Below, one piece after another: positions 1,182-57,791 of a stretch of DNA of 64,000 nucleotides. The notes beneath the pieces are model-generated. The model did not search any database. It saw only the letters and a list, made by a program, of their open reading frames with translations, and had not been told where the DNA came from. The translations under genes and the position numbers were made by a program. This stretch comes from Herbidospora sakaeratensis (GTDB lineage Bacteria; Actinomycetota; Actinomycetes; Streptosporangiales; Streptosporangiaceae): positions 41,640 to 105,639 of the forward strand of contig NZ_BBXC01000018.1 of NCBI RefSeq assembly GCF_001570525.1. Direction: 5' to 3'. Positions within the stretch are counted from its first letter, which is position 1, and every line of letters begins with the position of its first letter.

Positions 1182-2261
1182 TCACTCCGTGGCGACCAAC
1201 CCGCGTACCTCCCGCTGGAGGGCGTGCAGGAACCGGGCCGCGTCCCGCCCGTTGATGAGCCGGTGGTCGTAGGCCAGCCCGATGTGGGCCACCGCCCGCG
1301 ACCGCACCTCCCCGCCGTCGAGGTAGAGCACCTCCTGAGGCGCCGTCACGGCCAGTGCGCAGGCCGTGCCCGGGAAGATGAACGGGATCGCCAGCGTGAC
1401 GCCGCCGTCGTGGTGCAGGGTCACGGCGATGTTCGCGTCCGCCAGATCGGCGGCGCTGAAGTCGCCCTTCATCGCCGCGACGCGATACTCCATCAGCCGC
1501 GTCGCCACCTCCTGCATCGTCTTCGAGCCCGCGTCATGGACGACGGGCACGTACAGGCCGTCGCCGGTGTCGAAGGTGACGCCGACGTTGGCGCGCTCGG
1601 AGAGCACCGCCTGAGTGCGGTCGGGCCCGAGAGTGGCGAAGAACAGCGGAAACTCGCCGTGGAGCCGGGCCACGCCCATGACGAAGAGCTCGGCCAGGCC
1701 GACCGGACGGCGGACCTCCTTCGTCAGCCGCCGGGTCGCGGCGAGTTCCTCGTCCAGGGGCATGTCCACGACCGCGTAGGCGGCGGGGATGGTCGAGTGC
1801 GACAGCGTGACCGCCCGGCCGACGGCCTGCTGGACCTTCGACAAGGGGGCGGTCCGGGTGGAGGTCTCCGCCGCCAGTCGTTCCACGTCCGCCCGCCGGA
1901 CCACGTTGACGCCCAGGGCCGCCAGCTGGGCTTCGGTCACGCCCAGTTCGTCCATGGCCGCCCGTGCCGGAGCGGTGATCACCGGGCCCGCCGGCGCGGC
2001 CTGCGGGGCGGCCGCCACCGGGGCGACCGGGGTCGGGGCCGACGCGCCGATCGTCGCCAGGAGGTCTCCGGGGGCGCAGTCGGCCATCAGGGCGATCTCC
2101 TGCCGCAGCACTCCCGTCGCGTCGGCGGGCACCTCCTCGGCCGACTTCGAGGTCTCCAGGACGGCGATCGGGTCGCCCTCCTTGACCTCGGTCCCCGTCG
2201 CGGCCAGCCATTCGACCAGGACGTAGGTGTCGTCGTTGTTGTTGAGCTTGGGGACCTTCAC
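1182..2261 (-). CDS. 2-oxoacid dehydrogenase E2, lipoyl acyltransferase
   Basis: This 359-residue protein is the acyltransferase core of a pyruvate/branched-chain type dehydrogenase complex. A lipoyl domain (about 1-75) carries the lipoylated Lys39 in ETSKSAEEV. An Ala/Pro linker follows, then a peripheral subunit-binding domain (about 95-130) and a catalytic domain (about 145-359). The catalytic motif reads DHRLING (332-338): His333 is present, but the usual Asp of HxxxDG is Asn337. The GTG start at 2261 overlaps the E1beta stop (GTGA). It is the last gene of the minus-strand operon 6921-1182. No E3 gene is nearby, so a housekeeping E3 would be needed, or the acyl group may pass to a carrier protein instead. 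Confidence 0.88.
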   Translation of the reverse strand: MKVPKLNNNDDTYVLVEWLAATGTEVKEGDPIAVLETSKSAEEVPADATGVLRQEIALMADCAPGDLLATIGASAPTPVAPVAAAPQAAPAGPVITAPARAAMDELGVTEAQLAALGVNVVRRADVERLAAETSTRTAPLSKVQQAVGRAVTLSHSTIPAAYAVVDMPLDEELAATRRLTKEVRRPVGLAELFVMGVARLHGEFPLFFATLGPDRTQAVLSERANVGVTFDTGDGLYVPVVHDAGSKTMQEVATRLMEYRVAAMKGDFSAADLADANIAVTLHHDGGVTLAIPFIFPGTACALAVTAPQEVLYLDGGEVRSRAVAHIGLAYDHRLINGRDAARFLHALQREVRGLVATE

Positions 2262-3235
2262 TTCAGGGACTCCAGGACGGTGTCATAAACGGTGGTCTCG
2301 GTCAGCAGGACGGCACGTTCCAGGTGGCTCGCCGTCGGGATGATGCTGTCGGCCGAGTGGGCCAGCGCGACCGGATTGCGCAGCACGCCCCACAACTCCC
2401 GGTGCAGGGCGTGGGCGACCTCGGCGCCCCATGTCCCGCCGGCGGTGCTCTCCTCGGCGACGACGACCGCCTTGGCCTCGCGGGCCACGGCCACCAGCGG
2501 GGCCGCGTCCAGAGGGTGGAGGCGGGAGGGCACCAGCAGGGTGCAGACGATCTCCTGTTCCAGCAGGAGGCGGCGCATGGCGGCGAGGGCCCGGTGGGCG
2601 ACGCCGCCGGGGGCGATGATCACGCAGTCGGGGGGCGTGTCGACGTGGACGCGGGCCAGGCCGCCGGTGAGGTCCCAGGTGAACAGGTCGTCCACCTCGT
2701 GCATGCGCTTGGTGTAGAGGATCTTGTCCTCGAAGAAGACGCAGGGGCGCTCGGCGGCGATCATCTCGGCGAAGACGGCGCGGTTGTCGTGGAGGGGCGA
2801 CATCTCGTAGACGTCGAGGCCGGGCACGCCGATGAAGTGTTTCTGCAGGCTCTGGCTGTGGGTGGGGCCGTAGCCGCGACCGCCGCCGGTTGGCAGGCGG
2901 ACGATGAGGCGCATCGGGACGCGGGAGCCGTACATGGAGACGGATTTGGCGGCGAAGTTGACGATCTGGTCGAAGGCCAGCGTGACGAAGTCGCTGAACA
3001 TGATCTCGACGATCGCGGTGTCGCCGCACAGCGCGAGGCCCGCCCCGACGCCGGTGATGGCCGACTCGCTGATCGGGGTGGTGAGGACCTGCGCGGGAAA
3101 CCGCGTCGACAACCCGCGGGTGGCCTTGAAGGCGCCGCCGTAGGGGTCCAGGAGGTCCTCTCCCAGGAGGAAGGCCCTCGGGTCGCCGGCGAGCACCTCG
3201 TGCAGCGCCTGGTTCAGGTTCTCTACGACTCGCAT
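2258..3235 (-). CDS. 2-oxoacid dehydrogenase E1 beta subunit
   Basis: The 325-residue product matches E1 beta (transketolase-like pyrimidine-binding plus C-terminal domains) of pyruvate, acetoin or branched-chain dehydrogenases. Family blocks are GEDLLDPYGGAF near the start, TTPISESAITGVGAGLAL, and a C-terminal domain with VVVAEES. With E1 alpha it binds thiamine diphosphate and decarboxylates a 2-oxoacid. I chose ATG 3235 (MRVVENLNQ) because it is preceded by GGCGGGA and matches family starts. ATG 3259, overlapping the previous gene, is the alternative. Its stop overlaps the E2 start. Substrate is not evident from the sequence. Confidence 0.9.
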   Translation of the reverse strand: MRVVENLNQALHEVLAGDPRAFLLGEDLLDPYGGAFKATRGLSTRFPAQVLTTPISESAITGVGAGLALCGDTAIVEIMFSDFVTLAFDQIVNFAAKSVSMYGSRVPMRLIVRLPTGGGRGYGPTHSQSLQKHFIGVPGLDVYEMSPLHDNRAVFAEMIAAERPCVFFEDKILYTKRMHEVDDLFTWDLTGGLARVHVDTPPDCVIIAPGGVAHRALAAMRRLLLEQEIVCTLLVPSRLHPLDAAPLVAVAREAKAVVVAEESTAGGTWGAEVAHALHRELWGVLRNPVALAHSADSIIPTASHLERAVLLTETTVYDTVLESLK

Positions 3236-3245
3236 GCGTCCCGCC

Positions 3246-4136
3246 TCATGGCTTGGCACCGTGCAAAAGGCGTGGGTCAGAGCTGCCCTGACCCCACGTC
3301 GACAGGGGGCGGGCCTTCACATCCCGCACCACGGACTCGACCAGGTCCAGCGCCCGGGTGTCCGCCTCCGCAAATCCGGGCAGGTCAGACATCTCCCGAT
3401 ACCAGTCCCACAGGTCCGACACCCCTGACCGGGTGTCGTCGCCCTTGCTGTGAGGGCCGAGCCGGTTGACGGAGAACTCCACGACGAGAGGAGACCCGTC
3501 ACGCACGGAGGCGACCAACGGCGTGAGCACCGCGCGGATCGACGCGATGTCGCCGGCCGGCAGGGCCACATGGCGGACACCGAAGGCCGCACAGCGCATC
3601 CCGATGTTTCCGGACATCGCCATGGCCGTCGGGGTGGTCTGCGCGATGCCGTTGTGCTCGACCACGACCAGCAGCGGCAGCGACCACAGGGCCGCCAGGT
3701 TCAGGGCCTCGTAGACCGCCCCCTCGCCCCACGTCCCGTCGCCGATGTACGCGCAGGCCAGCGCCCCCGAGCCGCGCAGGTGCAGGGCGGCCCCGGCCGC
3801 GACGGGCAGGCTCTCGCCCTGCACGCCCGTCGACAGGTAGCCCTCGCGCAGGATGTGCTGGCTGCCGCCGACGCCGTCGCAGACCGCGCCCTCGCGGCCC
3901 ATGATCTCGGCCAGCAGGCCGGCCGGGTCGTCGAAGCGGGCCAGGTAGTGGCCGTGCCCCCGGTGGTTGCTGAAGACGTGGTCGCGCGGGCCGAGCAGCG
4001 GCGCCACCGCCACCGGCACGATCTCCTGGCCCAGGCAGGTGTGGGTGGTGCCGTTGAGCTCGCCCTTGGCGAACAGGTCGAGCAGGGCGCGCTCGAAGTG
4101 GCGGATGAGCAGCAGCCGGTCGAGGTCGGTGGTCAC
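3246..4136 (-). CDS. 2-oxoacid dehydrogenase E1 alpha subunit
   Basis: The 296-residue product is the thiamine-diphosphate-binding E1 alpha subunit. The ThDP motif runs from GDG (132-134) to EHNG (160-163), where the usual second Asn-type position is His-Asn. SNHRGHGHYLA (56-66) is the familiar E1 alpha block. The GTG start at 4136 overlaps the stop of the condensation-carrier gene in GTGA, so translation is probably coupled. Being slightly short at the N terminus is common in acetoin and biosynthetic E1 alpha proteins. Its place inside an NRPS operon suggests it makes an acyl or hydroxyacyl group for the assembly line. Confidence 0.9.
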   Translation of the reverse strand: MTTDLDRLLLIRHFERALLDLFAKGELNGTTHTCLGQEIVPVAVAPLLGPRDHVFSNHRGHGHYLARFDDPAGLLAEIMGREGAVCDGVGGSQHILREGYLSTGVQGESLPVAAGAALHLRGSGALACAYIGDGTWGEGAVYEALNLAALWSLPLLVVVEHNGIAQTTPTAMAMSGNIGMRCAAFGVRHVALPAGDIASIRAVLTPLVASVRDGSPLVVEFSVNRLGPHSKGDDTRSGVSDLWDWYREMSDLPGFAEADTRALDLVESVVRDVKARPLSTWGQGSSDPRLLHGAKP

Positions 4137-5548
4137 CTGACGGCCGGTTCCGCCTCGCGGATCGCCTGGACGACGCCCGCGATGGTCGGGGTGTCGAAGA
4201 AGACGTCCAGGGGGACCTCGACGCCGAGCCGCTTGCGCATGCGGGCGATGATCTGGGTGATGGTGAGGGAGTGCCCGCCGAGGTCGAACAGGTCCTCGTC
4301 GTCGCCGATCTCGTCGATGCCCAGGACGTCCTGCCAGATCTCGCGGACGGCGTCGTCGAGGCCGGTCGCCTGCGGGGCGCCGTCCACGGGGCTTTCTGGG
4401 TTGTTCATGATGGTGAGAAGGTCCTCCGCTATCCGGGCGACGTCCGGCTCCGTGCCGGAGCCGGCGCCATATTGCATGATCACGTAGAGGCCGTCGGGGT
4501 GGTCGACGGCCTGGAGGTGCAGGGTGCTGCGGACGGAATGGTTGAAGGCGGCCCAGTCGACGACGGTCTTCACGCCGGTGAAGACAGGGTCGGGGCGGCG
4601 TTTGCGATAGCTGACCGAGACCTGCGCGAGGGCGGTGCGCGGGCGCACCCCCCTGACGGCGCGGGCGTAGGGGACGTGCCGGAAGCGGTACATCGCGCGC
4701 AGGTCGCAGTGGAGCGTGCGGGCGACGTCGGCGACGGCGCCCTCCGGCGCGACGGTGACGGGCAGTTCGTTGACGAACAGGCCGATGTTGTCGCGCACGT
4801 CCGGGACGCGGGTCGACAGGTCGACGGCGACGGTCGGGGCGGGGTCGCCGTAGCGGTGCAGCAGGGTGTGCACGGAGGCCAGGAAGAGCTCGAAACGGGA
4901 GACGCCGGGCAGGTCCGGCAGTTGCCCCCGGAAGGTGTACACCGCCCCCTCGGCGGCCCCCCGGCCGGCCGGGGTCAGGCCCGGCAGCGTCGTCGCCTCT
5001 CCGGGCTGACGCGCCGACCAGTACGCCTTCGCCTCGCCGAGGTCGTCGCGCACCCGCTCCCGCTCGCCCTCGGCGAAGCTCGCGTAGGACATGCCGAGCC
5101 GGGGCCGCGACTCGCCGTTGTAGAAGTCGGCCAGGTCTCTGACCAGGATGTCCTTCGACTCGCCGTCGAACACCAGGTGGTGGGCCACGAACACCAGCAC
5201 GTGCCGTTCGGGGCCCAGCTTGGCCAGCGTGAACCGGGCGAGGGGCCCGTTCTCGACGTCGAACGGCCGCAGCGTCTCCTCCCGCACGAACCCGGGGAGG
5301 TCGTCGGCGGTGGTGAGCCTGATCGGCGGGCGCCGGCCGGGCACCATCACGGGCAGGCCGTCGACCTCGGCGACCGCGCTCGACAACACCGCGTGCCGCC
5401 GCACGACCGCCTCGCAGGCCGCGTGCAGCGCGCACGCGTCAAGCGGTCCGTCGAAGTCGACGACCAGCGGCATGTGGTAGGCGGTCCGGGCGCGGCCCAT
5501 GCGCTCGGTGATCCACATCCCGGTCTGCGCGAACGACGCCTCGGTCAT
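4133..5548 (-). CDS. NRPS condensation domain plus carrier protein (C-PCP)
   Basis: This 471-residue didomain protein starts at ATG 5548, overlapping the previous stop in ATGA. The condensation domain fills about 1-375 and has an intact HHLVFDG motif (His123-His124, Asp128). The peptidyl carrier domain (about 390-471) has DLGGHSL with Ser427 as phosphopantetheine site. It has no adenylation domain, so its carrier is probably loaded in trans by the enzyme encoded just upstream. It would join an acyl group to a carrier-bound amino acid. Which condensation partner it uses cannot be read from the sequence. Confidence 0.9.
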   Translation of the reverse strand: MTEASFAQTGMWITERMGRARTAYHMPLVVDFDGPLDACALHAACEAVVRRHAVLSSAVAEVDGLPVMVPGRRPPIRLTTADDLPGFVREETLRPFDVENGPLARFTLAKLGPERHVLVFVAHHLVFDGESKDILVRDLADFYNGESRPRLGMSYASFAEGERERVRDDLGEAKAYWSARQPGEATTLPGLTPAGRGAAEGAVYTFRGQLPDLPGVSRFELFLASVHTLLHRYGDPAPTVAVDLSTRVPDVRDNIGLFVNELPVTVAPEGAVADVARTLHCDLRAMYRFRHVPYARAVRGVRPRTALAQVSVSYRKRRPDPVFTGVKTVVDWAAFNHSVRSTLHLQAVDHPDGLYVIMQYGAGSGTEPDVARIAEDLLTIMNNPESPVDGAPQATGLDDAVREIWQDVLGIDEIGDDEDLFDLGGHSLTITQIIARMRKRLGVEVPLDVFFDTPTIAGVVQAIREAEPAVR

Positions 5549-6921
5549 GGCAGCGCCTTCTTGTCGACCTTGCCACCCCGGTTGCGCGGCAGCGCGTCCA
5601 TCGTGGTGACCTTCGCCGGCAGCTCGTGCGGGGCGAGCCGGTCGAGCAGGAAGGCCCGCAGGTCGGCGAGCGGGATCTCCTCCTGGACGACCAGAGCCGC
5701 CGCCACCACCGTCCCGAGCACCGGGTGGGGCACCCCGTAGGCGGCGGCCTCGGTGACCAGCGGGTGCGCGTGCAGCGCCTCCTCGACCTTCAGAGTGGAG
5801 ACCTTGTGGGCGCCCGACTTGACGACGTCGCCGGTCCGGTCGACCAGGAACAGGTAGCCCTCCTCGTCGAGGTAGCCGAGGTCGCCCATCCGCACCCAGC
5901 CGTCGCGGAAGGTGTCCGACACGGTCTCGCCGAGGTAGGCGCGCGGCGCGGCGGGTGAGCGCATCCACACCTCGCCGACCTCTCCGGGCGCGGCCGGGGT
6001 CCCGTCGCCGGCGGTGATCCGGACCGACCCGCCCGCCGCCGCCCGGCCCACCGAGCCGGGGCGCTCGGGGTCGAAGACCATGATCGTCTGCGCGGGGGCG
6101 GCCTCGGTCGAGGTGTAGTAGTTCGTGATCATCGCGGCCGGGAACAGGCCGGCCAGCCGGACCGCCACGGCCGAGGGCAGCGGCGCGGCGGCCGACCCGA
6201 GCAGCAGCACGCTGTCGAGGGGCTCGGCCTTGGCCGACAACATCTCGATCGCCATGGCGGGCACCAGGAACACCGTCCCGGCCTGGTACTTCGCGATGAG
6301 CGAGGCGAACCGGCCGGGGGTGAAGACGGGGGTGGTGACGACGGTCGGATGCGCCGCGATGGCGTTCACGAGCATCATCTGACCGGCGTTGGTGCCGATC
6401 GGGAACGCGTGCGCGAGGTGCCTGGAGTGCCGGAAGGCCCGGCGGCGCGGGTCGCGGGGCAGGCCGTGGGCCAGGTTGGCGTGGGTGGCGGTGACGCCCT
6501 TGGCCACACCGGTCGTGCCGGAGGTGAAGAGGATCTGCGCCGGGTCGGCCGGCGACACCCGTCGGACCTCTGTCAAGGGCCCTGTCATGAAACTTTCATT
6601 GCGCAGAATCCGAGTCATTCCGACACGTTCCGCTAGATGTCCGATCTCTCCCTCCGGCGTCCGGTCGGAGATCGGCACCGCGACGGCCCCCGCCCGCAGC
6701 ACCCCCATGAACGCCACCGCGTAGTCGAGCCACCCGGCGTGGGGGTACACGAGTCCCACCGGCTCCCCGGGGCGCACACCTTCGGTGATCAGCAGGTTCG
6801 CCAGACCGTCGGCGCGGTGGTCCCAGTCGGCGTGGGTCAGTTCCCCCACACCGTGGACGATCATGGCGACGCCGTCAGGCTCGGCGGCGGCGCGGGCCGC
6901 CAGCAGATCCGAGAGCGTCAT
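5545..6921 (-). CDS. Free-standing AMP-forming acyl/adenylating enzyme
   Basis: The 458-residue product belongs to the adenylate-forming (ANL) superfamily. The P-loop LFTSGTTGVAKG (131-142), the YTSTEAAP block and the A10 Lys (GGKVDKKAL, Lys451) are present. In the A4 region, where amino-acid-activating domains have an Asp that binds the alpha-amino group, this protein reads HAFPIGTNAG with no Asp. It therefore more likely activates a carboxylic acid without an alpha-amino group, which is inference. It is the first gene of the minus-strand operon, with a GAGGAAG Shine-Dalgarno sequence. It diverges from the large NRPS and overlaps the C-PCP gene it probably loads. Confidence 0.88.
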   Translation of the reverse strand: MTLSDLLAARAAAEPDGVAMIVHGVGELTHADWDHRADGLANLLITEGVRPGEPVGLVYPHAGWLDYAVAFMGVLRAGAVAVPISDRTPEGEIGHLAERVGMTRILRNESFMTGPLTEVRRVSPADPAQILFTSGTTGVAKGVTATHANLAHGLPRDPRRRAFRHSRHLAHAFPIGTNAGQMMLVNAIAAHPTVVTTPVFTPGRFASLIAKYQAGTVFLVPAMAIEMLSAKAEPLDSVLLLGSAAAPLPSAVAVRLAGLFPAAMITNYYTSTEAAPAQTIMVFDPERPGSVGRAAAGGSVRITAGDGTPAAPGEVGEVWMRSPAAPRAYLGETVSDTFRDGWVRMGDLGYLDEEGYLFLVDRTGDVVKSGAHKVSTLKVEEALHAHPLVTEAAAYGVPHPVLGTVVAAALVVQEEIPLADLRAFLLDRLAPHELPAKVTTMDALPRNRGGKVDKKALP

Positions 6922-7203
6922 TGGACTTCCTCAAAGATCGGATGAATACTGCCCGAGCACTGCATTACTGAAAAGATTCTTTCCAGTTAGATCAGTCGCC
7001 AGTGTGGCACGGTCCGGACGCTCGTCACAAGGGGTATCGGGCTCCGGCGGCCCAATGGGTGTGCCACGTTTAGAGCTTGTGAGAGGCGGCGGGGCGTGCC
7101 AGACTGACGCCGTCCACTAATTGCAAAGAACCTTTCCAGTTAGCTTCCCCGGCTGAGGCGTTTGGCCTCTTTGTGCTGCATTCGTCCGATCACTTGAGGG
7201 AAG
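6922..7203. promoter_or_regulatory. Bidirectional promoter region of the biosynthetic cluster
   Basis: This 282-bp region separates the two divergent operons. It contains two copies of the same 18-bp motif: AAGATTCTTTCCAGTTAG at 6973-6990 and AAGAACCTTTCCAGTTAG at 7126-7143. One lies 51 bp before the left start and the other 60 bp before the right start. A related sequence occurs at the ROK gene promoter (17476-17493). Local AT content is higher than in the flanking genes. No clear -35/-10 pair stands out by eye. Confidence 0.6.
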
Positions 7204-10200
7204 ATGCTCGCCGTCACACCGGCCAATCCGCTCTCGCTCGGACAGGAACGGCTCTGGTTCCTGCACGAGCTCAACCCCGACGACGCGTCGTACAACATCT
7301 GTGTGACCGAACGGCTCGTCGGCGATCTCGACGTGGCCGCTTTAGAGCGGGCACTTGACACGGTCATGCGAAGGCACGAGGTATTGCGGACGCGCTACCC
7401 CGCCGTCGACGGCAACCCGGTCGCACTGGTCGAGGACCGTGCCCTCCCCCTCGAACGCGTCTCCGGCGTGCCGCTGGCCGACCTCACCAACCGGCCGTTC
7501 GACCTGGCGAACGGTCCCGTCGTCAGGGCCTTTCTGACCGACGACCAGACGCTCGTCATCGTCCTGCACCACATCGCCGGCGACGGCTGGTCGCTCGGTC
7601 TCCTGTACGACGAGATCGCCGCCCTCTACGCCGGCCGCGACCTGCCCGACCTGCCGATGCAGTACGGCGACCACGCGCGCAGGCAGCGTGAGCAGCCGAT
7701 CGACACCTCTTACTGGCGCGACCGGCTCGACCGCGTGCCGGTGCTCGACCTGCCCGCCGACCTGCCCCGGCCGAGGATCCGCACCTCCAGAGGCGCGGTC
7801 GTGGCCCGAAGGCTGCCCCGGGAGCTCGCCGACCAGGTGAACGCGCTCGCCCGCAAGGAGCGCGTCACCCTGTTCATGCTGCTCATGGCGGCCTTCCAGA
7901 CCCAGCTCCACCGCTACACGGGGGCCGCCGACTTCGCCGTGGGCACCCCCGTCGCGGCCCGGCCCGACGAGGACCTCGAAAGGCTCATCGGGTTCTTCCT
8001 CAACACCGTCGTGCTGCGCGCCGACCTCACTGAAGATCCGACCTTCCGCGATCTGCTGAAGCGCACCCGGCGGACCGCGATCGACGCGTTCACCCACGCC
8101 GACACGCCGTTCGACCGGGTGGTGCAGGACCTCGGCGCAGCCCGCGACCTGAGCCGCACGCCCGTCTTCCAGACCCAGTTCAGCCTGCGCAGCGAGGCCG
8201 GCACCCGCCTCCACCTCGACGGACTGGTCGCCGAGCCGGTCGACCCCGACTTCCGCCAGGCCAAGTTCGACCTGTCGCTGGAGATCACCCCGACCGGCGA
8301 CGGCCTGGACGCCTTCTTCGTCTACTCGGCCGACCTGTTCCACCCCGAGACGGTCGAACGCTTCGCGGCCAACTTCGAGACGCTGCTGCGCTCGATCGTC
8401 GACGACCCGGAACAGCCGGTCTCCCGCCTCGGCCTCGTCTCGGCCCCTGAGCGGGAGCTTCTCGCCAGGTGGTCGGAGGGGCCCGACGACCCGGTCACGC
8501 CCGAGCGGGAGACCCTCGCCGAGGTCGTCTCGACCCGCTGCCCCGACCGGGTCGCGATCCGGCACGGGGACGACGCGATCACGTACCGGAGACTGCACCG
8601 GAGGGTCGCGGGCACCGCGCGGCGGCTGCGGGAGCGGGGCGTCGGCCCGGGGGTGCGGGTGGCGGTCTGCATGGAGCAGTCGATCGACCTGGCCGTCGCG
8701 CTGCTCGCGGTGCTGAAGGCGGGCGGGGCCTACGTGCCGATCGACCCCGAGTATCCCGACGAACGCCGCGCCTTCATGGTCGAGGACTCCGGCGCGGCGC
8801 TGCTGCTGACCGAGATCGACGACGCCGAGGCCGACGACCTGGCACCCGTCGGCGACGGCGACGACCTCGCCTACGTCATCTACACCTCGGGCTCGACCGG
8901 GAGGCCGAAGGGCGTCGCGGTCGCCAACCGCGAGATCCTCCGCTACCTGGCCGACGCGAAGCACCGCTTCTCGGTCGAGGACGACGCCGAGTACGCCCTC
9001 CTCCAGTCGCTCGCCTTCGACTTCGGCATCACGATCCTCTATCTGTGCCTGAGCACCGGCGGCACGCTGCACCTGCTGCCCGCCCGCATCTCCGGCCCCG
9101 AGCTCGCCGGGCACATGCGCGGCATCGACTACGTCAAGCTCACCCCGTCGCACCTGGGCGCGCTCGCCGCCGACACCGACGACGTCGCCACCCTCCTGCC
9201 GCGCAAGCTGCTCATCTTCGGCGGCGAGGGGTCGAGCTGGGAGTTCGCCCGCGACCTCGCCCGGCGGGTGCCGGTCGTCAACCACTACGGCCCGACCGAG
9301 GCCATCGTCGGCGTCTCGACCTACCGCGTCTCCCCGTCCACCGCGCCGACCAGGCCGATCACCCCGATCGGGCAGCCGCTGGGTCATTCGGTCCTGTACG
9401 TCCTGGACCGGCACCTCGCGCCGGTCCCGGCCGGCGTGGCGGGCGAACTGTGCATCGGCGGCCGGCTGGCCCGCGAGTACCTGGGCCGCCCCGACCTGAC
9501 CGCCGAGAAGTTCGTCGACCACCCGCTGTACGGCCGCCTCTACCGCTCGGGCGACCTGGCCCGCTGGCTCCCGACCGGCGACCTGGAGTTCCTGGGCCGC
9601 CGCGACCTCCAGGTCAAGATCCGCGGTTACCGGGTCGAGCTCGGCGAGATCGACGAGGCGCTGCGCCTCGTGCCCGGCGTCTCCCACGCCGTCACCGACG
9701 CCCGGGACGGCGAGCTCGTCGGCTACGTCGTCGCCGACCCCCGGCCCGCGATCGGCGACCTGCGCCGGACGCTGGCCGAGCGGCTGCCCGAGTACATGGT
9801 GCCGACCCGCTGGGTGTTCCTCGACGAGCTCCCGCTCAAGGGCCACGGCAAGGTCGACCGGGCGGCGCTGCCCGCCCCCGAGGACAGCCGCGCCGAGGAC
9901 GTGCCGTTCGAACCTCCGGCCGACGCCTGGGAGGAGGCCGTCGCCGCCGCCTGGTGCGAGGTGCTGGGGCTCCGGCAGGTGGGCGTCCTGGACGACTTCT
10001 TCGACCTGGGCGGCCACTCCCTGCTCGCGACCCGCGTCGTGGCCAAGCTGCGCCGGACCCTGCCCGAGGGGTCGTCGCCGATCGCCCTGATGGACCTGTT
10101 CCAGCACCCGACGGTCCGTGCCCTCGCCGCCGTCGCCCGGTCGGCCTCGGGCCCCCGGCCGCTGCTCTACCGGCTGACCGGGGCGGGCACGAAGGCGCTG

Positions 10201-12237
10201 GTCTGCGTGCCCTACGGCGGCGGCAGCGCGGTCGTCTACCAGCCGCTCGCCGACGCCCTGCCGCCCGAATGGGAGCTCTGGTCGGTCGCGGTGCCCGGCC
10301 ACGACCTCGGGCTCGCCGAGGAGTCGCAACCCCTGGAGGAGGTGGCCCGCCGCTGCGTCGAGGAGATCCTGCGTGTCGAGGCCCCCATCACCCTGTACGG
10401 CCACTGCGGCGTCGGCGGCGCCCTCACCGTCGAGATCGCCCGCCGCCTCGAAGCGGCCGGGCGCGCGGTCGACACCGTCTACCTCGGCGGCATCTTCCCG
10501 TTCGCCCGCCCCACCAAGGGCCTGCTCGGCCGCTGGGCCGGTCTGGCCCGGCTGGAGCGGTTCCGCAGCGACAAGGGCCAGCTCAACTGGCTCACCGCGC
10601 TCGGCGCCGACCTGTCCGATTTGGACGACGCCCAGAAGGCGTTCGTCATCGGCAACATGCGCCACGACGCCCGCGCCGCCGAGGACTACTTCACCGCGCT
10701 GATGGACAGCGGCGCCCCCAAGCTGAAGGCGCCGATCGTGTCCGTCGTCGGCGAGTACGACCCCGCGACGGACTACTACGAGGAACGCTTCGCGGAGTGG
10801 GGCTTCATCGCGGAGCGCACCCGGCTGGTCGTGCTGGACGAGGCGGGCCACTACTTCCTGAAATATCGCCCAGACGAGCTGGCCGCCATCGTCACGGCCC
10901 CGGCCCCGGCTCCCGTCGCCGCCCGCGCCGAGGCGGTCCCGGCCGGGCCCGCGCCCTCGGTCAGGCGGTTCCTGCTGGTGGCGTTCGGCCAGATGGTCTG
11001 CCTGGCCGGGTCGACGCTGACCGAGTTCGCGCTGCCCCTCTGGGTCTACCTCCAGCACCAGTCGATGACCCAGCTGGCCCTGCTCCAGGTCCTGGCCGTC
11101 ATCCCCGGCGTGCTGGCCGCGCCGCTGGCCGGGGCGCTGGTCGACCGGTCGTCCAAACGCGCCGTGATGATCGGCGGCAACGCGGCGGCGCTGGCCGTCC
11201 AGGCCGCGACGGGCGTGCTCGTGTGGACCGGGAACCTGCACGTCTGGACCCTCTACCTGCTGCTGCCGCTGTTGTCGGTCGCACTGACCACCCAGCGGCT
11301 GGCGTTCACGGCGGCCGTGCCGCAGCTGGTCCCCAAGCGGTATCTCGGCCACGCCAACGGCATCGCCCAGACCGCGCTCGGCATGGCCCAGTTCGTCGCG
11401 CCGCTCGCGGCCGTCGGCCTGATGGCGGTCTGGGGGCTGCAGGGCATCCTGATCCTGGACGTCGTCGGCCACGTCTTCACCATCGTCGTGCTGGTACTGG
11501 TGGCCTTCCCTGCCGCGCTGGCCATGCGCCGCCGGGAGACGGTCGGCCGGGAGATCGCCGAAGGGTTCAGGATCTCGTTCGGCAACCCCTACTTCCGGGC
11601 GATGGTCGTCTTCTTCGCGTTCCTGTCGCTCGGGTTGTCGCCGGTCTTCATGATGTACTCGCCGCTGGTGCTGGAGTTCGGCACCGTCCAGGAGGCGGGT
11701 GTGATCGCGCTGGTGGCCGGGTCGGGCGCCGTCGCGGGCGGTCTCACGATGGGCCTGTGGGGCGGGCCGTCGAAGCGCCGGATGCGGGGCATGCTGCTGC
11801 TCACGTTGATCATCGCCGTGTCGTGCGGCGTCGTGGCGCTCCGCGACGACCTGGTCGTCGTCGGGGTCGGCGCGTTCGGCGTCAGCTTCGGCCTGGCCCT
11901 GGTCAACGGCGTCTACAACACGATCATCCAGGTCAAGGTGCCGCAGCGGTTCCACGGCCGGGTGTTCGCGCTCAACCAGATGGTCGCCTGGTCGACCATC
12001 CCGATCGGCGTCGGGATCATCGCTCCCGTGGGCACCGGGCTCCTCGGCGACGTCTCCCTGATGTACGCCGTCTTCGCCGGATTCATCCTGCTGGTCGTGG
12101 CCGGGGCGCTGCTCACCAGGAGGCTGGCCCGGTTCGACGACGCGGTCCCCGACGCCACCCCCGACGACCTGGTCGGGCTGGAACGGAAGGTGCGGAATGA
12201 AGGAAAGACTGGCCGAACTGGTGTCGGAGTCGTGTGA
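7204..12237 (+). CDS. NRPS-exporter fusion: C-A-PCP-TE-MFS
   Basis: This single 1677-residue frame has five parts. A condensation domain (about 1-420) has HHIAGDG, His122-His123. An adenylation domain (about 430-880) has YTSGSTGRPKG and YGPTE, and its pocket residues read by eye as D-F-T-K-I-G-H-V-G-K, close to the published Asp code. A carrier domain has DLGGHSL, Ser939. A thioesterase (about 975-1235) has GHCGVGG, so the nucleophile is Cys1068 rather than Ser, with Asp in GEYDPATD and His in DEAGHYF. A C-terminal MFS permease (about 1250-1660) has many membrane segments. The enzyme would add and release an Asp-derived unit and may export it. ATG 7204 follows GAGGGAAG. The coding frame is unbroken across all joints. 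Confidence 0.93.
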   Translation: MLAVTPANPLSLGQERLWFLHELNPDDASYNICVTERLVGDLDVAALERALDTVMRRHEVLRTRYPAVDGNPVALVEDRALPLERVSGVPLADLTNRPFDLANGPVVRAFLTDDQTLVIVLHHIAGDGWSLGLLYDEIAALYAGRDLPDLPMQYGDHARRQREQPIDTSYWRDRLDRVPVLDLPADLPRPRIRTSRGAVVARRLPRELADQVNALARKERVTLFMLLMAAFQTQLHRYTGAADFAVGTPVAARPDEDLERLIGFFLNTVVLRADLTEDPTFRDLLKRTRRTAIDAFTHADTPFDRVVQDLGAARDLSRTPVFQTQFSLRSEAGTRLHLDGLVAEPVDPDFRQAKFDLSLEITPTGDGLDAFFVYSADLFHPETVERFAANFETLLRSIVDDPEQPVSRLGLVSAPERELLARWSEGPDDPVTPERETLAEVVSTRCPDRVAIRHGDDAITYRRLHRRVAGTARRLRERGVGPGVRVAVCMEQSIDLAVALLAVLKAGGAYVPIDPEYPDERRAFMVEDSGAALLLTEIDDAEADDLAPVGDGDDLAYVIYTSGSTGRPKGVAVANREILRYLADAKHRFSVEDDAEYALLQSLAFDFGITILYLCLSTGGTLHLLPARISGPELAGHMRGIDYVKLTPSHLGALAADTDDVATLLPRKLLIFGGEGSSWEFARDLARRVPVVNHYGPTEAIVGVSTYRVSPSTAPTRPITPIGQPLGHSVLYVLDRHLAPVPAGVAGELCIGGRLAREYLGRPDLTAEKFVDHPLYGRLYRSGDLARWLPTGDLEFLGRRDLQVKIRGYRVELGEIDEALRLVPGVSHAVTDARDGELVGYVVADPRPAIGDLRRTLAERLPEYMVPTRWVFLDELPLKGHGKVDRAALPAPEDSRAEDVPFEPPADAWEEAVAAAWCEVLGLRQVGVLDDFFDLGGHSLLATRVVAKLRRTLPEGSSPIALMDLFQHPTVRALAAVARSASGPRPLLYRLTGAGTKALVCVPYGGGSAVVYQPLADALPPEWELWSVAVPGHDLGLAEESQPLEEVARRCVEEILRVEAPITLYGHCGVGGALTVEIARRLEAAGRAVDTVYLGGIFPFARPTKGLLGRWAGLARLERFRSDKGQLNWLTALGADLSDLDDAQKAFVIGNMRHDARAAEDYFTALMDSGAPKLKAPIVSVVGEYDPATDYYEERFAEWGFIAERTRLVVLDEAGHYFLKYRPDELAAIVTAPAPAPVAARAEAVPAGPAPSVRRFLLVAFGQMVCLAGSTLTEFALPLWVYLQHQSMTQLALLQVLAVIPGVLAAPLAGALVDRSSKRAVMIGGNAAALAVQAATGVLVWTGNLHVWTLYLLLPLLSVALTTQRLAFTAAVPQLVPKRYLGHANGIAQTALGMAQFVAPLAAVGLMAVWGLQGILILDVVGHVFTIVVLVLVAFPAALAMRRRETVGREIAEGFRISFGNPYFRAMVVFFAFLSLGLSPVFMMYSPLVLEFGTVQEAGVIALVAGSGAVAGGLTMGLWGGPSKRRMRGMLLLTLIIAVSCGVVALRDDLVVVGVGAFGVSFGLALVNGVYNTIIQVKVPQRFHGRVFALNQMVAWSTIPIGVGIIAPVGTGLLGDVSLMYAVFAGFILLVVAGALLTRRLARFDDAVPDATPDDLVGLERKVRNEGKTGRTGVGVV

Positions 12238-12439
12238 CGGCGAACTCACCCCGGCCGACGTGCTGGCGGCGACCGTGCCGCTGGCCTACCTCGGCGTGAC
12301 CTCGCTGGCGCAGATGCGGCTCATCGACGCCGTCGAACGCGAATACGGCGTCGAGGTCGACCTGAGCGGCGACGTGACGTTCCTCGACAGCGTCGACGGG
12401 CTGGCGGCCTGGGTCGAGGCCGCCCGGTCACCGGCATGA
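12197..12439 (+). CDS. Discrete acyl carrier protein
   Basis: The 80-residue acidic protein has the carrier fold length and the site YLGVTSLAQMRL, with Ser36 as probable phosphopantetheine attachment (LGxTS in place of the common LGxDS). ATG 12197 follows GGAAGG and lies 41 bp inside the end of the NRPS-MFS gene, in another frame. The end overlaps the next gene by 4 bp. It may carry the acyl unit made by the dehydrogenase complex or by the free-standing ligase. That link is inference from context. Confidence 0.85.
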   Translation: MKERLAELVSESCDGELTPADVLAATVPLAYLGVTSLAQMRLIDAVEREYGVEVDLSGDVTFLDSVDGLAAWVEAARSPA

Positions 12440-13707
12440 CGGAGCGGGCCGCCTTCTCGGGCGGGCGTACGGGGACGGCGTCGTTCACCTGGGGTCAGCG
12501 CGCGATCTGGGAGGCGATCGAGCGCACCCGGCCGGACGACCACTACTTCAACTTCGGCCGGGTGCTGCCGCTCGGGGCGCGCCCGGCGTCGGTGTCGTCG
12601 GCCCTGTGGGCGCTGGGCCGCCTGGTCGAGCGGCACGAGTCGCTGCGCACCCTGGTCGCCGACGGCGGCCAGTCGCTCCGGGCGAGCGGGGAGCTGACCG
12701 TCCGGACCGGCGACGACCCCGCCGTCCTGCTGGCCGAGCTGGCGGCGACCCCGTTCGCCTACGCGGACGAATGGCCGCTGCGCGCCGGGCTGGTGCTCTC
12801 CCCCGACGGGCTGGTCACCCATCTGGTGCTGGTGTTCTGCCACCTGGCCGCCGACGGGCTGGGGGCCGAGCAGGCCATCCGCGACCTGCGGCTGCTGCTC
12901 CTGCGCGGCGGCGCGCCCGCGTCCCGGCCGCCGCAGCCGATGGACATCGCCCGCTGGCAGGGCTCGGACGCGGGCCGCCGGGTGGCGGCCGAGGCGGCGG
13001 CGTACTGGGAGGACGCGCACCGGCGCATCCCGCCGACGATGTTCCACGTGCCGTCGGGCGCCGGGGAGACGCCGCCCGTCTGGCGGGCGTCGTTGCGCTC
13101 CCCCGCCGTCGACCTGGCCGCGCAGCGCATCGCGGTCCGGCACGGCACGAGCACCTCGACGGTCCTGCTGACGGCGGTGACCGCGCTGGTGTCGGAGATG
13201 ACCGGGCACGAGACGGTGGCGATGTTGCCGATCGTGGGCAACCGGTTCCGGGCCGACACCCGGACCGCGGTGACCACGATGTCGCAGGAGGGGCTGTTCG
13301 TCCTGGACGTGGAGAAGGTGCGGTTCGACGAGCTGCTGGGCCTGGCGGGGCGGGCGGCGCTGCGGGCGTACCGGAGCGCCTATCACGATCCGGCCGACCG
13401 GTCGGCGGCGCTGGCGCGGGTCGCGGCCGAGCGGGGCACGGTGGTGCACCCGTGGTGCTGCTTCAACGACATGCGCTTCGCCGACAACCCCGTCTACCGC
13501 GACGAGGCGCTGATCCGCCGGGCGCTCAGTGAGAGCACGCTCAGCTGGCCGATGTCGCAGGACCAGCTGAACTGCCGGTTCTGCGTCCACCTCAGCGGCA
13601 CCATGGACGTGTCGGTGACCGCCGACACCCGGTGGTTGTCCAAGGCCGACATGGAGCGGTTCCTGCACGGCCTGGAGACCATGCTGGTCGAAGCGGCGCT
13701 GCGGTGA
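12436..13707 (+). CDS. Stand-alone condensation-like acyltransferase
   Basis: The 423-residue protein has the condensation-domain fold pattern, starting FTWGQRAIWEAIERTRP. The active-site motif reads CHLAADG (Cys135-His136, Asp140). The first His of HHxxxDG is Cys, but the catalytic second His and the structural Asp-Gly remain. It could be an active condensation enzyme acting on carrier-bound partners in trans. Its start overlaps the ACP stop in ATGA, and its own stop overlaps the next start in GTGA, so it is translated as part of one operon. Confidence 0.85.
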   Translation: MTERAAFSGGRTGTASFTWGQRAIWEAIERTRPDDHYFNFGRVLPLGARPASVSSALWALGRLVERHESLRTLVADGGQSLRASGELTVRTGDDPAVLLAELAATPFAYADEWPLRAGLVLSPDGLVTHLVLVFCHLAADGLGAEQAIRDLRLLLLRGGAPASRPPQPMDIARWQGSDAGRRVAAEAAAYWEDAHRRIPPTMFHVPSGAGETPPVWRASLRSPAVDLAAQRIAVRHGTSTSTVLLTAVTALVSEMTGHETVAMLPIVGNRFRADTRTAVTTMSQEGLFVLDVEKVRFDELLGLAGRAALRAYRSAYHDPADRSAALARVAAERGTVVHPWCCFNDMRFADNPVYRDEALIRRALSESTLSWPMSQDQLNCRFCVHLSGTMDVSVTADTRWLSKADMERFLHGLETMLVEAALR

Positions 13708-15551
13708 TCGCCTACGCCGAGGCGACCTCGTGCGCCCAGGGCCGCCCGCTGACCTTCCGGCTCGACGGCGACAGCGGCGTGCACGTCCACGACGCCACCA
13801 CGGGCGCCCACGTGCTGACGACCCGCGCCACCGGCCCGCGCTGGACGCTCGACATTCCCGGCCACTGGCCGAGCTCCCTCTACCGCGCCCACTTCACCGA
13901 CGCGCCCGCCTCCGAGGTGCCGAGGGCGACCGGTGAGCTGCCCGGCGTCGGCGTGTCCGGCGACGACGAGGTCTACTTCGTCGTGACGCCGGCCGGGCCG
14001 AAGAAGGACATCCTGGTGTCCATCCCGTTCGGCACCTGGCAGGCGTACAACCGCGCCGGGGTGCCCGGCGAGGGCCTCTACTGGACGGAGGACCCGTCGC
14101 GGGCCGTCGAGGTGACCTTCGACCGGCCGGGCGGCGGCCCGTCGCCCGAACGCTGGGAGGACGGCTTCCTGCGCTGGTTGCGCCCGGCGGGCTTCGACGC
14201 CGACTTCTGCGACGGCCTCGACCTGTCGCCCGGCCTGCTCGACGGCTACCGCCTTCTGGTCGTCAACGGCCACGACGAATACTGGACCCGCGAGATGCGC
14301 GACGCCTGCGAGGAGTTCGTGCGGCGCGGCGGCAACATGGCGATCTTCGCCGGCAACACCGCCTGGTGGCAGGCCCGCCTGGAGGGCCGCACCCTGGTCT
14401 GCCACCGCGACCCTTACACCGACCCCGTCGACGACCCGGCGCTGGTCACCGCCGAGTGGTCGACCGTCGGCCGCCCCGAGAACACGCTGACCGGCGTGTC
14501 GTTCCGCGCGGGCGCGGGCACCTGGGGCCCGTCGATGCCGCTGATGAACGAGGAGTCGTACGTCACCCGCTTCGCCGGCCACTGGGTCTTCGAGGGCACC
14601 GGCCTGACCGAGGGCGACAAGTTCGCCCAGGGAGCCCTGGGCTACGAGACCGACGCGGCCGAGTTCGTCGAGGTGGGCGGCGTCCCGAGGGTCACCTCGC
14701 GCGACGGCACCCCGCCGTCGTTCACCGTGCTCGCCACCGCCGACCTGCGCCACTGGCGCAGCGGCGGCCAGGGCGGCTGGGCGACCATGGGCGTCTTCAC
14801 CTCGGGCCGCGGCACCGTCTTCAACGCCGCCACGGTCAACTGGGGCAACACCCTCCACGACCCGGTCGTCGACCGCATCACCCGCAACGTCCTGACCCGC
14901 CTCGGTTCCGGGCACGACGGCTGGGACGTGATCGGCGAACCGTCGGACGTCCGCGCGCTGGCCGCCGACGCCCGCGTCCTCTACGGCGTGACCTCCGACG
15001 GCGCACTGGTGGCCCGCGAACTGTGCGGCCAGAACCTGACGTGGCGCCCCATCGGCTGGGCCGGCGACGTGACCTGCCTCGACACCCCGCGCGAGGCGGC
15101 GGGGCGACGCGGCGTGCTCCTCTACGGCGTCACCCCCGACGGCACCCTGCGCTCACGGGCGGCCGTGGAGATGCCCGCCCCCTGGACCGACGAGGCCCGC
15201 TGCCCCGAGGGCACCGTGGCCCTGGCCGTCGCCGACTGCACGTTCTGGGCCGCGACCGCGGCGGGCCGCCTGTGGGCGATGCCCTTCACCGGCGAGGAGT
15301 GGCTCGACCGAGGAGAGTGCGACGCGGTCGCGATGAGCGGCATGAACGGCCGCCTCTACGCCCTGACGAGCACCGGAGAGCTGGTCACCCGCCGCCCGGA
15401 CGCGACCGACACGTGGCAACCGGCGGGCGACCTCCCCGAGGGCACCACGACGTTCACCGCCCACGCGGGCCGCTTCGTCGCCACGGCCCCGGGAGAACCG
15501 CTGCGCTGGCGCGATACGCGCTTCACCAGACCCGAAAGGCCGTGTCGGTGA
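13704..15551 (+). CDS. N,N-dimethylformamidase large-subunit-like protein with repeat tail
   Basis: The 615-residue protein starts at GTG 13704, overlapping the previous stop. Residues about 60-415 match the C-terminal domain of N,N-dimethylformamidase beta subunits: VNGHDEYWTREMRDA and FAGNTAWWQ are typical, and these enzymes use iron to split an amide. Residues about 415-600 form about five repeats of the type (G)xLYxVTxDGxLxxR, which look like propeller blades. There is no signal peptide. In this cluster it may hydrolyse or rearrange an amide in the product or give self-protection. Neither is proven. A short gap and a convergent gene follow. Confidence 0.8.
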   Translation: MIAYAEATSCAQGRPLTFRLDGDSGVHVHDATTGAHVLTTRATGPRWTLDIPGHWPSSLYRAHFTDAPASEVPRATGELPGVGVSGDDEVYFVVTPAGPKKDILVSIPFGTWQAYNRAGVPGEGLYWTEDPSRAVEVTFDRPGGGPSPERWEDGFLRWLRPAGFDADFCDGLDLSPGLLDGYRLLVVNGHDEYWTREMRDACEEFVRRGGNMAIFAGNTAWWQARLEGRTLVCHRDPYTDPVDDPALVTAEWSTVGRPENTLTGVSFRAGAGTWGPSMPLMNEESYVTRFAGHWVFEGTGLTEGDKFAQGALGYETDAAEFVEVGGVPRVTSRDGTPPSFTVLATADLRHWRSGGQGGWATMGVFTSGRGTVFNAATVNWGNTLHDPVVDRITRNVLTRLGSGHDGWDVIGEPSDVRALAADARVLYGVTSDGALVARELCGQNLTWRPIGWAGDVTCLDTPREAAGRRGVLLYGVTPDGTLRSRAAVEMPAPWTDEARCPEGTVALAVADCTFWAATAAGRLWAMPFTGEEWLDRGECDAVAMSGMNGRLYALTSTGELVTRRPDATDTWQPAGDLPEGTTTFTAHAGRFVATAPGEPLRWRDTRFTRPERPCR

Positions 15552-33578: not shown

Positions 33579-35036
33579 CTACAGGGAGATGCGTCCCGCG
33601 CCCGCGCCGTTCGTCACCGACGACTTGACGTTGGAGGCGGTCTCCAGGGAGTAGGAGTACGGGATCGAGGCGACGCTGCCGCCGGCCTGGCCCGTGCCCG
33701 AGTTCACGAAGTGGTTGTTGCGGGCGACGATGCTCCCCGGGCCCGAGTCGCCCTCGCCCAGGTGGTAGGGGTCGTCGGTGTTCTCGAAGTAGTTGCCCTC
33801 GACGAGCACGCCGGCGCCCTCGGTGGAGGCCACGCCGTAGCTGGTCACGCCGCCGTAGTAGTTGTTGTAGACGTGGACCGGGTTGCCGAACCGGACGCGC
33901 GGGTGGCGCTGGCCGGTGCCGTCGAACCAGTTGTGGTGGTAGGTCACCCGCAGGCGGCCGCGGTCCTCGGAGCCGTTGCCGTCGTCGTGGCCGAGCAGCA
34001 TCGACTTGTCGTGGTCGTAGATGCGGTTCCACGAGATCGTCACGTAGTCGCTGGCCCGCTTGACGTCGATGGCGCCGTCGTAGCCGTTGGACAGGGTGTT
34101 GTGGTCGATCCAGACCCGGGTGGAGTACTGGACGTTGATCGCGTCGTCGTTCCAGTTCCGGAAGGTCAGGTTGCGGATGATCACGTTGGTCGCCTCGGCG
34201 ACGTTCAGGCCGCAGCCCTGGATGACCGCGCCGGAGTTGCCGATGATCGTCTTGTTGGAGCCGATCCGGAGCATGCCGGAGCAGGAGATCGTCCCGGAGA
34301 CCCGGATCACGGCCGCGTTGGTGCCGGAGGCCGCGCTGGTCAGCGCGCTGGAGCTGGTCACGGTGGTGGGTGAGGCGTTGCCGCCGCCGGTGGTGCCGCC
34401 GCCCTGGGTGGCCCAGCCGACCAGCCCGCCCGGCGGCGGGCCGACGGTGGGAGTCGGCGTCGGGGTCGGGTTGGGGGTCGGGGTGACCGTGGGCGTGGGC
34501 TGCGGACCGCTCGACGGGGTGAACGTCCAGTGCTTGGTGACCACGTTGTCGCAGGAGTTCTGCTGGATCACGGCGTTGGAGGCGGTGGAGTTGTCGCGGG
34601 TGTTCACGCACTTGCCGCCGTTGCCGTTCACGATCCGGGTGCCGTTGGCGGCGTCGGAGAACGTCCACGTCTGCGAGGCGGAGCCGTTGCAGGTCTGCTG
34701 GACGATCGCCTTGCCCGCCGAACTGCTGTTGTCCTGGACGCCCAGGCACTTGCCGCTGTGCCCGGCGGTGATGCGGTAGCCGCCGTTCTGAGAGGCCAGG
34801 GTGAAGCGCTGGTTGGTGGTGCCGGTGCAGGCGTACTGGATCAGCCCGGCGTTGTCGGCCGTGCTGAAGTTCAGCACGTCGAGGCAGAGGTTGCTGCCCC
34901 GGTTGACCACGGAGTACGTACCGGCGCCCGGGGCCGCCTGGGCGCTCGTGGTCAGCGGGACCACGACGCCGGCGACGGCCAGGACGACGGCGGCGAAGAC
35001 GGCCGGCCACCGTCTTCTGACACTCAATCTGGACAC
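33579..35036 (-). CDS. Secreted pectate lyase with ricin-type lectin module
   Basis: The 485-residue protein has a Sec signal peptide (RRRWPAVFAAVVLAVAGVVV), a ricin B beta-trefoil (about 35-165, with three Q/KxW repeats: QRFTL, QTWTF, KHWTF), a Thr-Pro linker and a PL1 pectate lyase domain (about 205-485). The PL1 blocks are VWIDHN and RHPRVRFG, which contains the catalytic Arg. It should cut polygalacturonate outside the cell by calcium-dependent beta-elimination, with the trefoil holding plant wall sugars. GTG 35036 follows GAGGAG. An IclR-type palindrome lies 45 bp upstream (35081-35097). Confidence 0.93.
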   Translation of the reverse strand: MSRLSVRRRWPAVFAAVVLAVAGVVVPLTTSAQAAPGAGTYSVVNRGSNLCLDVLNFSTADNAGLIQYACTGTTNQRFTLASQNGGYRITAGHSGKCLGVQDNSSSAGKAIVQQTCNGSASQTWTFSDAANGTRIVNGNGGKCVNTRDNSTASNAVIQQNSCDNVVTKHWTFTPSSGPQPTPTVTPTPNPTPTPTPTVGPPPGGLVGWATQGGGTTGGGNASPTTVTSSSALTSAASGTNAAVIRVSGTISCSGMLRIGSNKTIIGNSGAVIQGCGLNVAEATNVIIRNLTFRNWNDDAINVQYSTRVWIDHNTLSNGYDGAIDVKRASDYVTISWNRIYDHDKSMLLGHDDGNGSEDRGRLRVTYHHNWFDGTGQRHPRVRFGNPVHVYNNYYGGVTSYGVASTEGAGVLVEGNYFENTDDPYHLGEGDSGPGSIVARNNHFVNSGTGQAGGSVASIPYSYSLETASNVKSSVTNGAGAGRISL

Positions 35037-57707: not shown

Positions 57708-57711
57708 GCCC

Positions 57712-57770
57712 GTCAGCGGCCGGTCAGCGCGCCGTCAGCGGCGTCAGCCGGTGGTCAGCGGCGGGTCAGC
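57712..57770 (+). promoter_or_regulatory. Six phased GTCAGC direct repeats
   Basis: GTCAGC occurs at 57712, 57723, 57734, 57743, 57754 and 57765. Spacings are 11, 11, 9, 11 and 11 bp, so the array is two triplets each in exact 11-bp phase. SARP proteins bind heptamer repeats spaced 11 bp on one DNA face. The array ends 21 bp before the DHA2 exporter start, which leaves little room for a leader, so the message may be leaderless. Confidence 0.7.
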
Positions 57771-57791
57771 GGCCCGGACCAGCCTGGGGTC

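Follow-up and report, generated by a model that had tools for sequence, protein, structure and literature searches.

In a stretch of 64,000 nucleotides from the soil bacterium Herbidospora sakaeratensis (contig NZ_BBXC01000018.1, positions 41,640 to 105,639; hereafter the window), we identified a nine-gene cassette at positions 1182-15551 that encodes E1alpha, E1beta and E2 proteins of the 2-oxoacid dehydrogenase kind together with nonribosomal peptide synthetase (NRPS) genes. Judged from its sequence, the trio is not an ordinary 2-oxoacid dehydrogenase, because it groups with trios like those of the dnacin and naphthyridinomycin pathways, carries Asn in the E2 motif and has no E3 gene beside it. 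It probably loads a glycolyl unit onto a carrier of this cluster; this is the core of the general scheme that we propose, and the same degree of confidence does not extend to its every step. Loading of an NRPS carrier with glycolyl by thiamine diphosphate (ThDP)- and lipoyl-dependent enzymes is known chemistry. Apparently new here are the gene set, the arrangement of a condensation (C) domain and a peptidyl carrier protein (PCP) without an adenylation (A) domain, the fusion of a thioesterase (TE) to a major facilitator superfamily (MFS) exporter, and an amidohydrolase. The initial annotation knew of no described pathway with these genes, and none was found in the literature searched, which comprised openly licensed papers and limits the statement to these.

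The nine genes form two divergent operons in the 8.6 Mb genome (Table 1). The minus-strand operon is transcribed in the order acyl-AMP ligase, C-PCP, E1alpha, E1beta and E2, and the plus-strand operon in the order C-A-PCP-TE-MFS, acyl carrier protein (ACP), lone C protein and dimethylformamidase-type (DMFA2_C) protein. Operon neighbors overlap by 4 to 41 bases, given an E1beta start at 3259. Using Pfam, we confirmed each gene type named in the initial annotation for both sets and also detected a TE domain between the PCP and MFS parts of the NRPS protein, which that description lacked. The "complete" 2-oxoacid dehydrogenase set claimed there is incomplete, because no E3-type gene is among the nine. 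This is a weak sign against a canonical complex; 2-oxoacid dehydrogenase complexes may share a distant E3.

In a tree of the joined E1alpha and E1beta alignments, 76 of 91 rows (73 distinct) fell into one clade with a long stem and a Shimodaira-Hasegawa-like approximate likelihood ratio test (SH-aLRT) value of 100; the tree was built by a quick method with SH-aLRT support only, and 10 loci with missing or short E1 pieces were excluded. The clade includes the window, a paralogue from the same genome (L038), a locus bearing a UvrA-like gene (L098) and a locus from Actinosynnema (L091). The canonical E1 of the same genome (L044) lies outside on a very long branch, of a kind that the tree program flags. 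In L091, genes of the E1beta-E2 fusion and ketoacyl-ACP synthase III (KASIII) families adjoin E1alpha (families assigned by BLAST, with Pfam on other members), and the locus also encodes a 707-aa chorismate-binding/GATase protein, an HpaB protein and a flavin adenine dinucleotide (FAD) monooxygenase. These genes resemble DinU/S/Q/V/W/X of dnacin B1, for which UvrA is the deduced resistance gene (PMC7570522, in excerpt).

The E2 motif points the same way. The window protein reads HRLING in place of the HxxxDG of canonical complexes, and HRxxNG was found in 74 of 76 called E2s, the other two having Thr (L065) or Asp (canonical L044); eight proteins that belong to another lipoyl-domain family (L110, L112, L113, L115, L116, L119, L122 and L124) are not part of this count. 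Among the six PF00198 proteins of the genome, three read DG and one QG, and NG is confined to the two of the trio kind. The E1alpha carries SNHRGHGH where the canonical E1 of the same genome has PTYREHG. Both family motifs are present in 71 of 81 called E1alpha proteins, the second motif only in two short ones, and neither in eight, including the canonical L044_04 and L071_00. By Pfam, ThDP domains in E1alpha and E1beta and a lipoyl/acyltransferase E2 are present, as expected of glycolyl-forming E1/E2.

The second cluster of the same genome, L038 (G000:C7:594000-613900), has its related trio next to an NRPS-TE-MFS protein and a PCP, with two glycosyltransferases, a GH1 protein, an aldose epimerase and an APH-type kinase. 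Its relative from Herbidospora yilanensis (L080) is its sister row in the tree, each row having an end branch of 0.022, and encodes in addition an FAD monooxygenase and a 3-deoxy-D-arabino-heptulosonate 7-phosphate (DAHP) synthase of class II. Four Micromonospora loci (L093, L095, L101 and L102) combine an NRPS-TE-MFS protein with Ser-like code, a KASIII-family gene, a NapC-like ACP, E1alpha, an E1beta-E2 fusion and a lantibiotic-dehydratase-like protein (Pfam on L101 only).

The closest described counterpart is the scl cluster of Streptomyces sclerotialus. In the excerpted reports, the glycolyl unit of scleric acid, which is (2-(benzoyloxy)acetyl)-L-proline, is attributed to SclQ2, SclQ3 and SclQ4 (305, 338 and 386 aa) and the ACP SclQ1 (PMC6335953), and knockouts of sclQ1-4 confirmed their involvement (PMC6335953, PMC13307308). 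Like the window, scl has discrete E1alpha, E1beta, E2 and ACP genes, one C-A-PCP module, a TE and an MFS exporter in two divergent gene sets. Unlike scl, the window has an acyl-AMP ligase, an A-less C-PCP, a lone C protein and an amidohydrolase, its TE and MFS are fused to the NRPS, and its A-domain code is Asp-like, not Pro; the benzoate genes of scl (anthranilate synthase-like, DAHP synthase and isochorismatase) and its ATP-grasp gene are not among the nine.

The naphthyridinomycin, quinocarcin and dnacin systems (NapB/C/D, QncN/M/L and DinU/T/S) share with the window E1alpha, E1beta, a lipoyl E2 and a carrier, and the dnacin-like L091 also shares its E1 clade and E2 Asn motif. The original study of NapB/D and QncN/L is reportedly that of Peng in 2012. 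E1beta and E2 are separate in the window and fused in these systems, and Pfam detected no KASIII, UvrA-like gene, E1beta-E2 fusion or tetrahydroisoquinoline NRPS among the nine. DinS and DinU are named two-component transketolases through homology to NapD and NapB (PMC7570522, in excerpt), and the published relatives of the trio are, as far as the excerpts go, reported or proposed makers of glycolyl-S-carrier. The pepteridine cluster of Photorhabdus likewise joins pyruvate-dehydrogenase-like E1/E2 to T and C domains; it differs in its pteridine product, in a proposed alpha-keto acid substrate and in an E2 that is itself fused to T and C (PMC5384830). The excerpt of PMC9570651 has no bearing on the trio. 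The tree, the E2 motif and the discrete trio of scl thus support the analogy to quinocarcin and naphthyridinomycin that had been drawn, and of the "acyl or hydroxyacyl" group suggested with it they favor the hydroxyacyl, since the scl trio is assigned to glycolyl.

Two carriers could receive this unit, and both had been named as candidates. In the window, the PCP of the C-PCP lies beside E1alpha and the discrete ACP lies in the other operon. A GGxSL-type PCP motif was found no more than 500 bp upstream of E1alpha in 32 of the 76 clade loci, all of which also have the ligase and C-PCP, with the PCP fused or encoded as a separate small gene. Where a ligase is followed by a C-PCP-type C domain and E1 is in view, the A domain is missing in 40 of 40 cases (35 distinct, 28 outside the genus); where no E1 is in view, nine are A-less and eight have an A domain. 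The relatives in these counts are not independent, and 14 ligase rows were skipped (eight with E1 but cut near the locus end, six without E1 and differently arranged). In type-B clusters, the PCP-type carrier near E1 shares 33-40% identity with the window PCP and 20-31% with the ACP. The position and the missing A domain favor the C-PCP as the predicted acceptor; the similarity of the ACP to NapC-like carriers, described below, points to the opposite choice. The wiring favored by these comparisons is that the ligase would charge the ACP and E1/E2 the PCP of the C-PCP. Acyl ligase, carrier and C domain are fused in single proteins in L140 and L142 (by Pfam) and in L125 and L149 (by BLAST), near C-A modules and with no E1 in view. 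Those of L140 and L142 correspond to the discrete ligase, ACP and C protein of the window, and such fusions speak for these three as one unit.

The ligase probably takes an acid other than an alpha-amino acid, because inspection by eye shows no A4 Asp of amino-acid-activating domains and its nearest solved structures are FadD5 and oxalate-CoA ligase. The A-domain code of the TE-MFS module, DFTKIGHVG, which we read as Asp-like, agrees with the Asp unit predicted in the initial annotation. The same or nearly the same code occurs in many of the modules listed, the others being Ser-like or different. The C-PCP retains HHLVFDG; the lone C protein reads CHLAADG, with the second His retained. At least five NRPS proteins of this genome carry a C-terminal TE-MFS fusion (C18:51558, C7:654066, C8:567532, C7:606359 and C23:98767), so that the fusion of synthetase and exporter seems to be a general habit of the genome.

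With domain content, gene order, conservation and E1/E2 family read directly from the genomes, we infer substrates, product, carrier and bond type as follows. The cassette would make a small acylated glycolyl-amino-acid product. By analogy with their relatives, E1alpha and E1beta with ThDP would very likely draw on a ketose phosphate for a two-carbon ketol unit, which the lipoyl domain of E2 would relay to a carrier as glycolyl, the reduced lipoyl being re-oxidized by an E3 encoded elsewhere. By a narrow preference, this carrier would be the PCP of the A-less C-PCP directly upstream of E1alpha, so that E1/E2 would do the job of the missing A domain. The acyl-AMP ligase might load a carboxylic acid onto the discrete ACP and a C domain join the acyl group to the glycolyl, most simply as an ester on its hydroxyl, a step on which we are evenly divided. 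It is fairly likely that the NRPS module would then activate Asp and receive the acyl-glycolyl chain, with release by the TE and export by the fused MFS part. The lone C protein might carry out a further condensation or a transfer, and the amidohydrolase, which is of the iron type, might trim an amide (e.g., a temporary acyl group) or protect the host. The full combination, in which a ThDP/lipoyl transketolase has replaced the adenylation domain, setting sugar-phosphate glycolyl on the A-less C-PCP, from which a C domain makes an acyloxyacetyl (ester) unit that is amidated by Asp and exported by the synthetase's own transporter, is possible, and we put it forward tentatively.

The nine-gene block forms a discrete cassette that one chromosomal site either has or lacks. 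In six of six same-genus genomes, every one of the nine genes has a match, at 76-100% protein identity, and 12 of 100 relatives, this genome itself included, gave a lone-C match of at least 60% identity. In 150 genomes of the family we found 72 E1beta matches (E <=1e-60) across 48 genomes and 95 ligase matches (E <=1e-90) across 52 genomes, with a ligase within 20 kb of 52 of the 72 E1beta matches. Among close orthologues of the dimethylformamidase-type protein (39 rows down to E 2e-156, with 38 weaker rows excluded), 32 have E1beta as well as the ligase no more than 20 kb away. Of the other seven, two have the ligase near and E1beta on another contig, one is at a contig end, one has the ligase about 22 kb away, and three are without ligase or E1 in the fetched stretch. 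Together with the six complete same-genus sets, these counts exceed chance and bear out the co-occurrence that had been suggested as a check.

For the empty state we sampled eight sites of the M15 peptidase gene without an orthologue of the dimethylformamidase-type protein (L158-L165). At seven of them, the Lhr helicase and M15/ROK genes adjoin with no member of the nine between, apart from a single C domain retained in L158; in L165 the two matches are about 120 bases apart, and Lhr is not in view in L164. The C domain of L158 (8397-9551) is a relic, 56% identical to the C of the C-PCP. Related E1beta genes occur elsewhere in some of these genomes (G109, G140 and G180), therefore it is the site that is empty and not the genome. 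The M15 peptidase and ROK regulator were considered as cluster members and rejected; because M15 orthologues exist in genomes without the cluster, where they flank the empty slot, these genes are flanks and not parts.

Versions of the cassette are present in other genera. Among 19 distinct type-A cassettes viewed whole (window, L025-L033, L035, L047-L049, L060 and L150-L153), six show no NRPS protein in view (L032, L047, L048, L060, L150 and L151). Planotetraspora and Microbispora corallina are among the sources of such NRPS-less cassettes. NRPS-TE-MFS proteins are encoded elsewhere in G028 and G049, the two genomes of this kind that were searched, and supply in trans is therefore possible. 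The label "NRPS cluster" thus fits the window with its NRPS gene, but not all of its relatives. Several larger relatives (L051, L055, L056, L062, L066 and L043) have further modules, followed in several cases by an Asp or other TE-MFS module; of their A codes we presume DILQLG to be Gly-like and DTEDIGTII probably basic.

The dimethylformamidase-type protein matched dimethylformamidase (6lvb, E 1.6e-10) and N-acetyl-(R)-beta-phenylalanine acylase (8huy, E 9.5e-9) in profile searches, which were needed because plain phmmer matched mainly designed propellers. A Foldseek probability of 1.00 was obtained with an AlphaFold2 model (predicted local distance difference test, pLDDT, 80.7), with a query template modeling (TM) score of only 0.40-0.45. 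By positions counted by hand, H190, E192, N218 and E315 stand opposite H519, E521, N547 and E657 of 6lvb, and they are invariant in 16 of 16 aligned members. Alanine mutants of these four dimethylformamidase residues are inactive (PMC7686228, in excerpt). Besides the ligand E521, dimethylformamidase has the Tyr ligands Y399 and Y440, which fall outside the aligned stretch, and an invariant Y115 lies at about the spacing of Y440. The profile and fold matches and the four essential residues suggest that the protein is likely an active amide hydrolase. It differs from 6lvb and 8huy in its length of about 615 aa with a C-terminal beta-propeller, and no small-subunit gene is among the nine.

Several observations weigh against the proposed scheme. 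In the tree, NapB/D, QncN/L and SclQ are represented by stand-in loci recognized through gene content, and the asparagine-synthase-like gene of L091 is not listed in the fragment of the dnacin table covered (PMC7570522). L119, outside the clade, has both E1alpha motifs and other outgroup loci have close variants, which makes the E1alpha motif a weaker sign than the E2 motif. In the own-genome paralogue L038, E1/E2 occur with neither ligase nor lone C in view. Across the loci L045-L109, with window genes as probes, 53 of 65 named loci gave, in addition to E1/E2, one or more matches to ligase, carrier, C or A, and 12 gave none (L067, L078, L082-L084, L086, L087, L097, L104, L105, L107 and L109; L067 and L097 have ACP-family genes). 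A clearly catabolic setting for E1/E2, of the kind named earlier as a refuting case, was not seen for any clade locus; the 12 match-less loci were not looked at closely. An A-less C-PCP also occurs at nine loci where E1 is not in view (one of them, L043, has a piece of E2 at a contig end), so that the lack of the A domain need not depend on E1/E2; a possibility is that such proteins are loaded in trans by E1/E2 elsewhere in the genome. At eight loci of the clade, E1alpha is immediately preceded by a NapC-type carrier, and in nine loci (L061, L073-L075, L077, L079, L081, L085 and L108) the ligase and C-PCP lie outside the E1 operon, so that adjacency of E1alpha and C-PCP is not universal.

These NapC-type loci suit a different wiring of the same glycolyl chemistry, in which E2 charges the ACP (as for NapC, QncM and SclQ1), the PCP of the C-PCP receives an acid from the ligase and the lone C protein passes the glycolyl on. 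With three NapC-like carriers, the window ACP shares 24-28% identity and the PCP only 14-17%, and the carriers of the scl and dnacin clusters are as a rule discrete, as far as the excerpted sources describe them. We nevertheless regard this wiring as unlikely, if the most serious competitor, given the PCP just upstream of E1alpha in 32 loci, the PCP type of the discrete carrier near E1 in type-B clusters, and the loci that combine ligase, ACP and lone C with no E1 in view (L127, L130, L132, L133 and L135-L137). The domain families, which in Pfam and NCBIfam are those of 2-oxoacid dehydrogenases, would also suit a branched-chain or pyruvate dehydrogenase copy that supplies acetyl or isobutyryl from a 2-oxo acid to a carrier, as proposed for pepteridine; its place in the clade of dnacin- and naphthyridinomycin-like trios, away from the canonical E1 of its own genome, the divergent E1alpha motif and the Asn of E2 make this improbable. 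That the cassette is what remains of a larger NRPS cluster, in decay or without function, could be read from the six whole cassettes without an NRPS protein, the single C domain of L158 and the NRPS C pieces that are all L054/L154 shows. This appears very improbable beside the six same-genus genomes with all nine genes, the preserved E2, C and PCP motifs and the invariant amidohydrolase residues; the single TGA in two same-genus matches of the dimethylformamidase-type protein is the called gene end.

Two-carbon units derived from sugar are known to enter peptide assembly in only a few pathways, and a compact, widely inherited cassette beside an A-less module offers a testable case of E1/E2 loading in place of an adenylation domain. 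An uncharted metabolite group may lie behind it, since E1beta matches occur in about a third of the family genomes searched (48 of 150), and the fused TE-MFS exporter provides a handle on product release.

Table 1. Features of the nine-gene cassette (window coordinates; Pfam on window proteins)
Feature	Position	Strand	Characteristics and basis
E2	1182..2261	-	Lipoyl domain (ETSK) and acyltransferase domain, HRLING replacing HxxxDG; Pfam PF00364, PF00198
E1beta, ThDP-dependent	2258..3259	-	Start possibly 3235; Pfam PF02779, PF02780; tree
E1alpha	3246..4136	-	Motifs SNHRGHGH, GPHSKGDD; Pfam PF00676; NCBIfam
C-PCP didomain without A domain	4133..5548	-	HHLVFDG, GGHSL intact; proposed glycolyl carrier; Pfam PF00668, PF00550
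Acyl-AMP ligase, FadD/oxalate-CoA-ligase-like	5545..6921	-	Pfam PF00501, PF13193; NCBIfam; PDB matches
Divergent intergenic region, 282 bases	6922..7203		Presumed promoter region of both operons; gene coordinates
NRPS C-A(Asp-like)-PCP-TE fused to MFS exporter	7204..12237	+	A-domain code DFTKIGHVG; Pfam
Discrete ACP	12197..12439	+	Pfam PF00550; carrier comparison
Lone C-domain protein	12436..13707	+	Motif CHLAADG; Pfam PF00668, weak (32.0 bits, cut-off 30.6)
Dimethylformamidase-type amidohydrolase (DMFA2_C) domain with C-terminal beta-propeller	13704..15551	+	Pfam PF20254; profile; fold

The long open reading frames at 3246-5435 and 4133-5968 were rejected as true gene starts, as the Pfam domains begin late in them. 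Elsewhere in the window, we found a BTAD (SARP-like) regulator followed by an MFS transporter (54564-59354), with genes of the same families in some of the fetched loci, and a pectate lyase with ricin-type lectin repeats (33579-35036).

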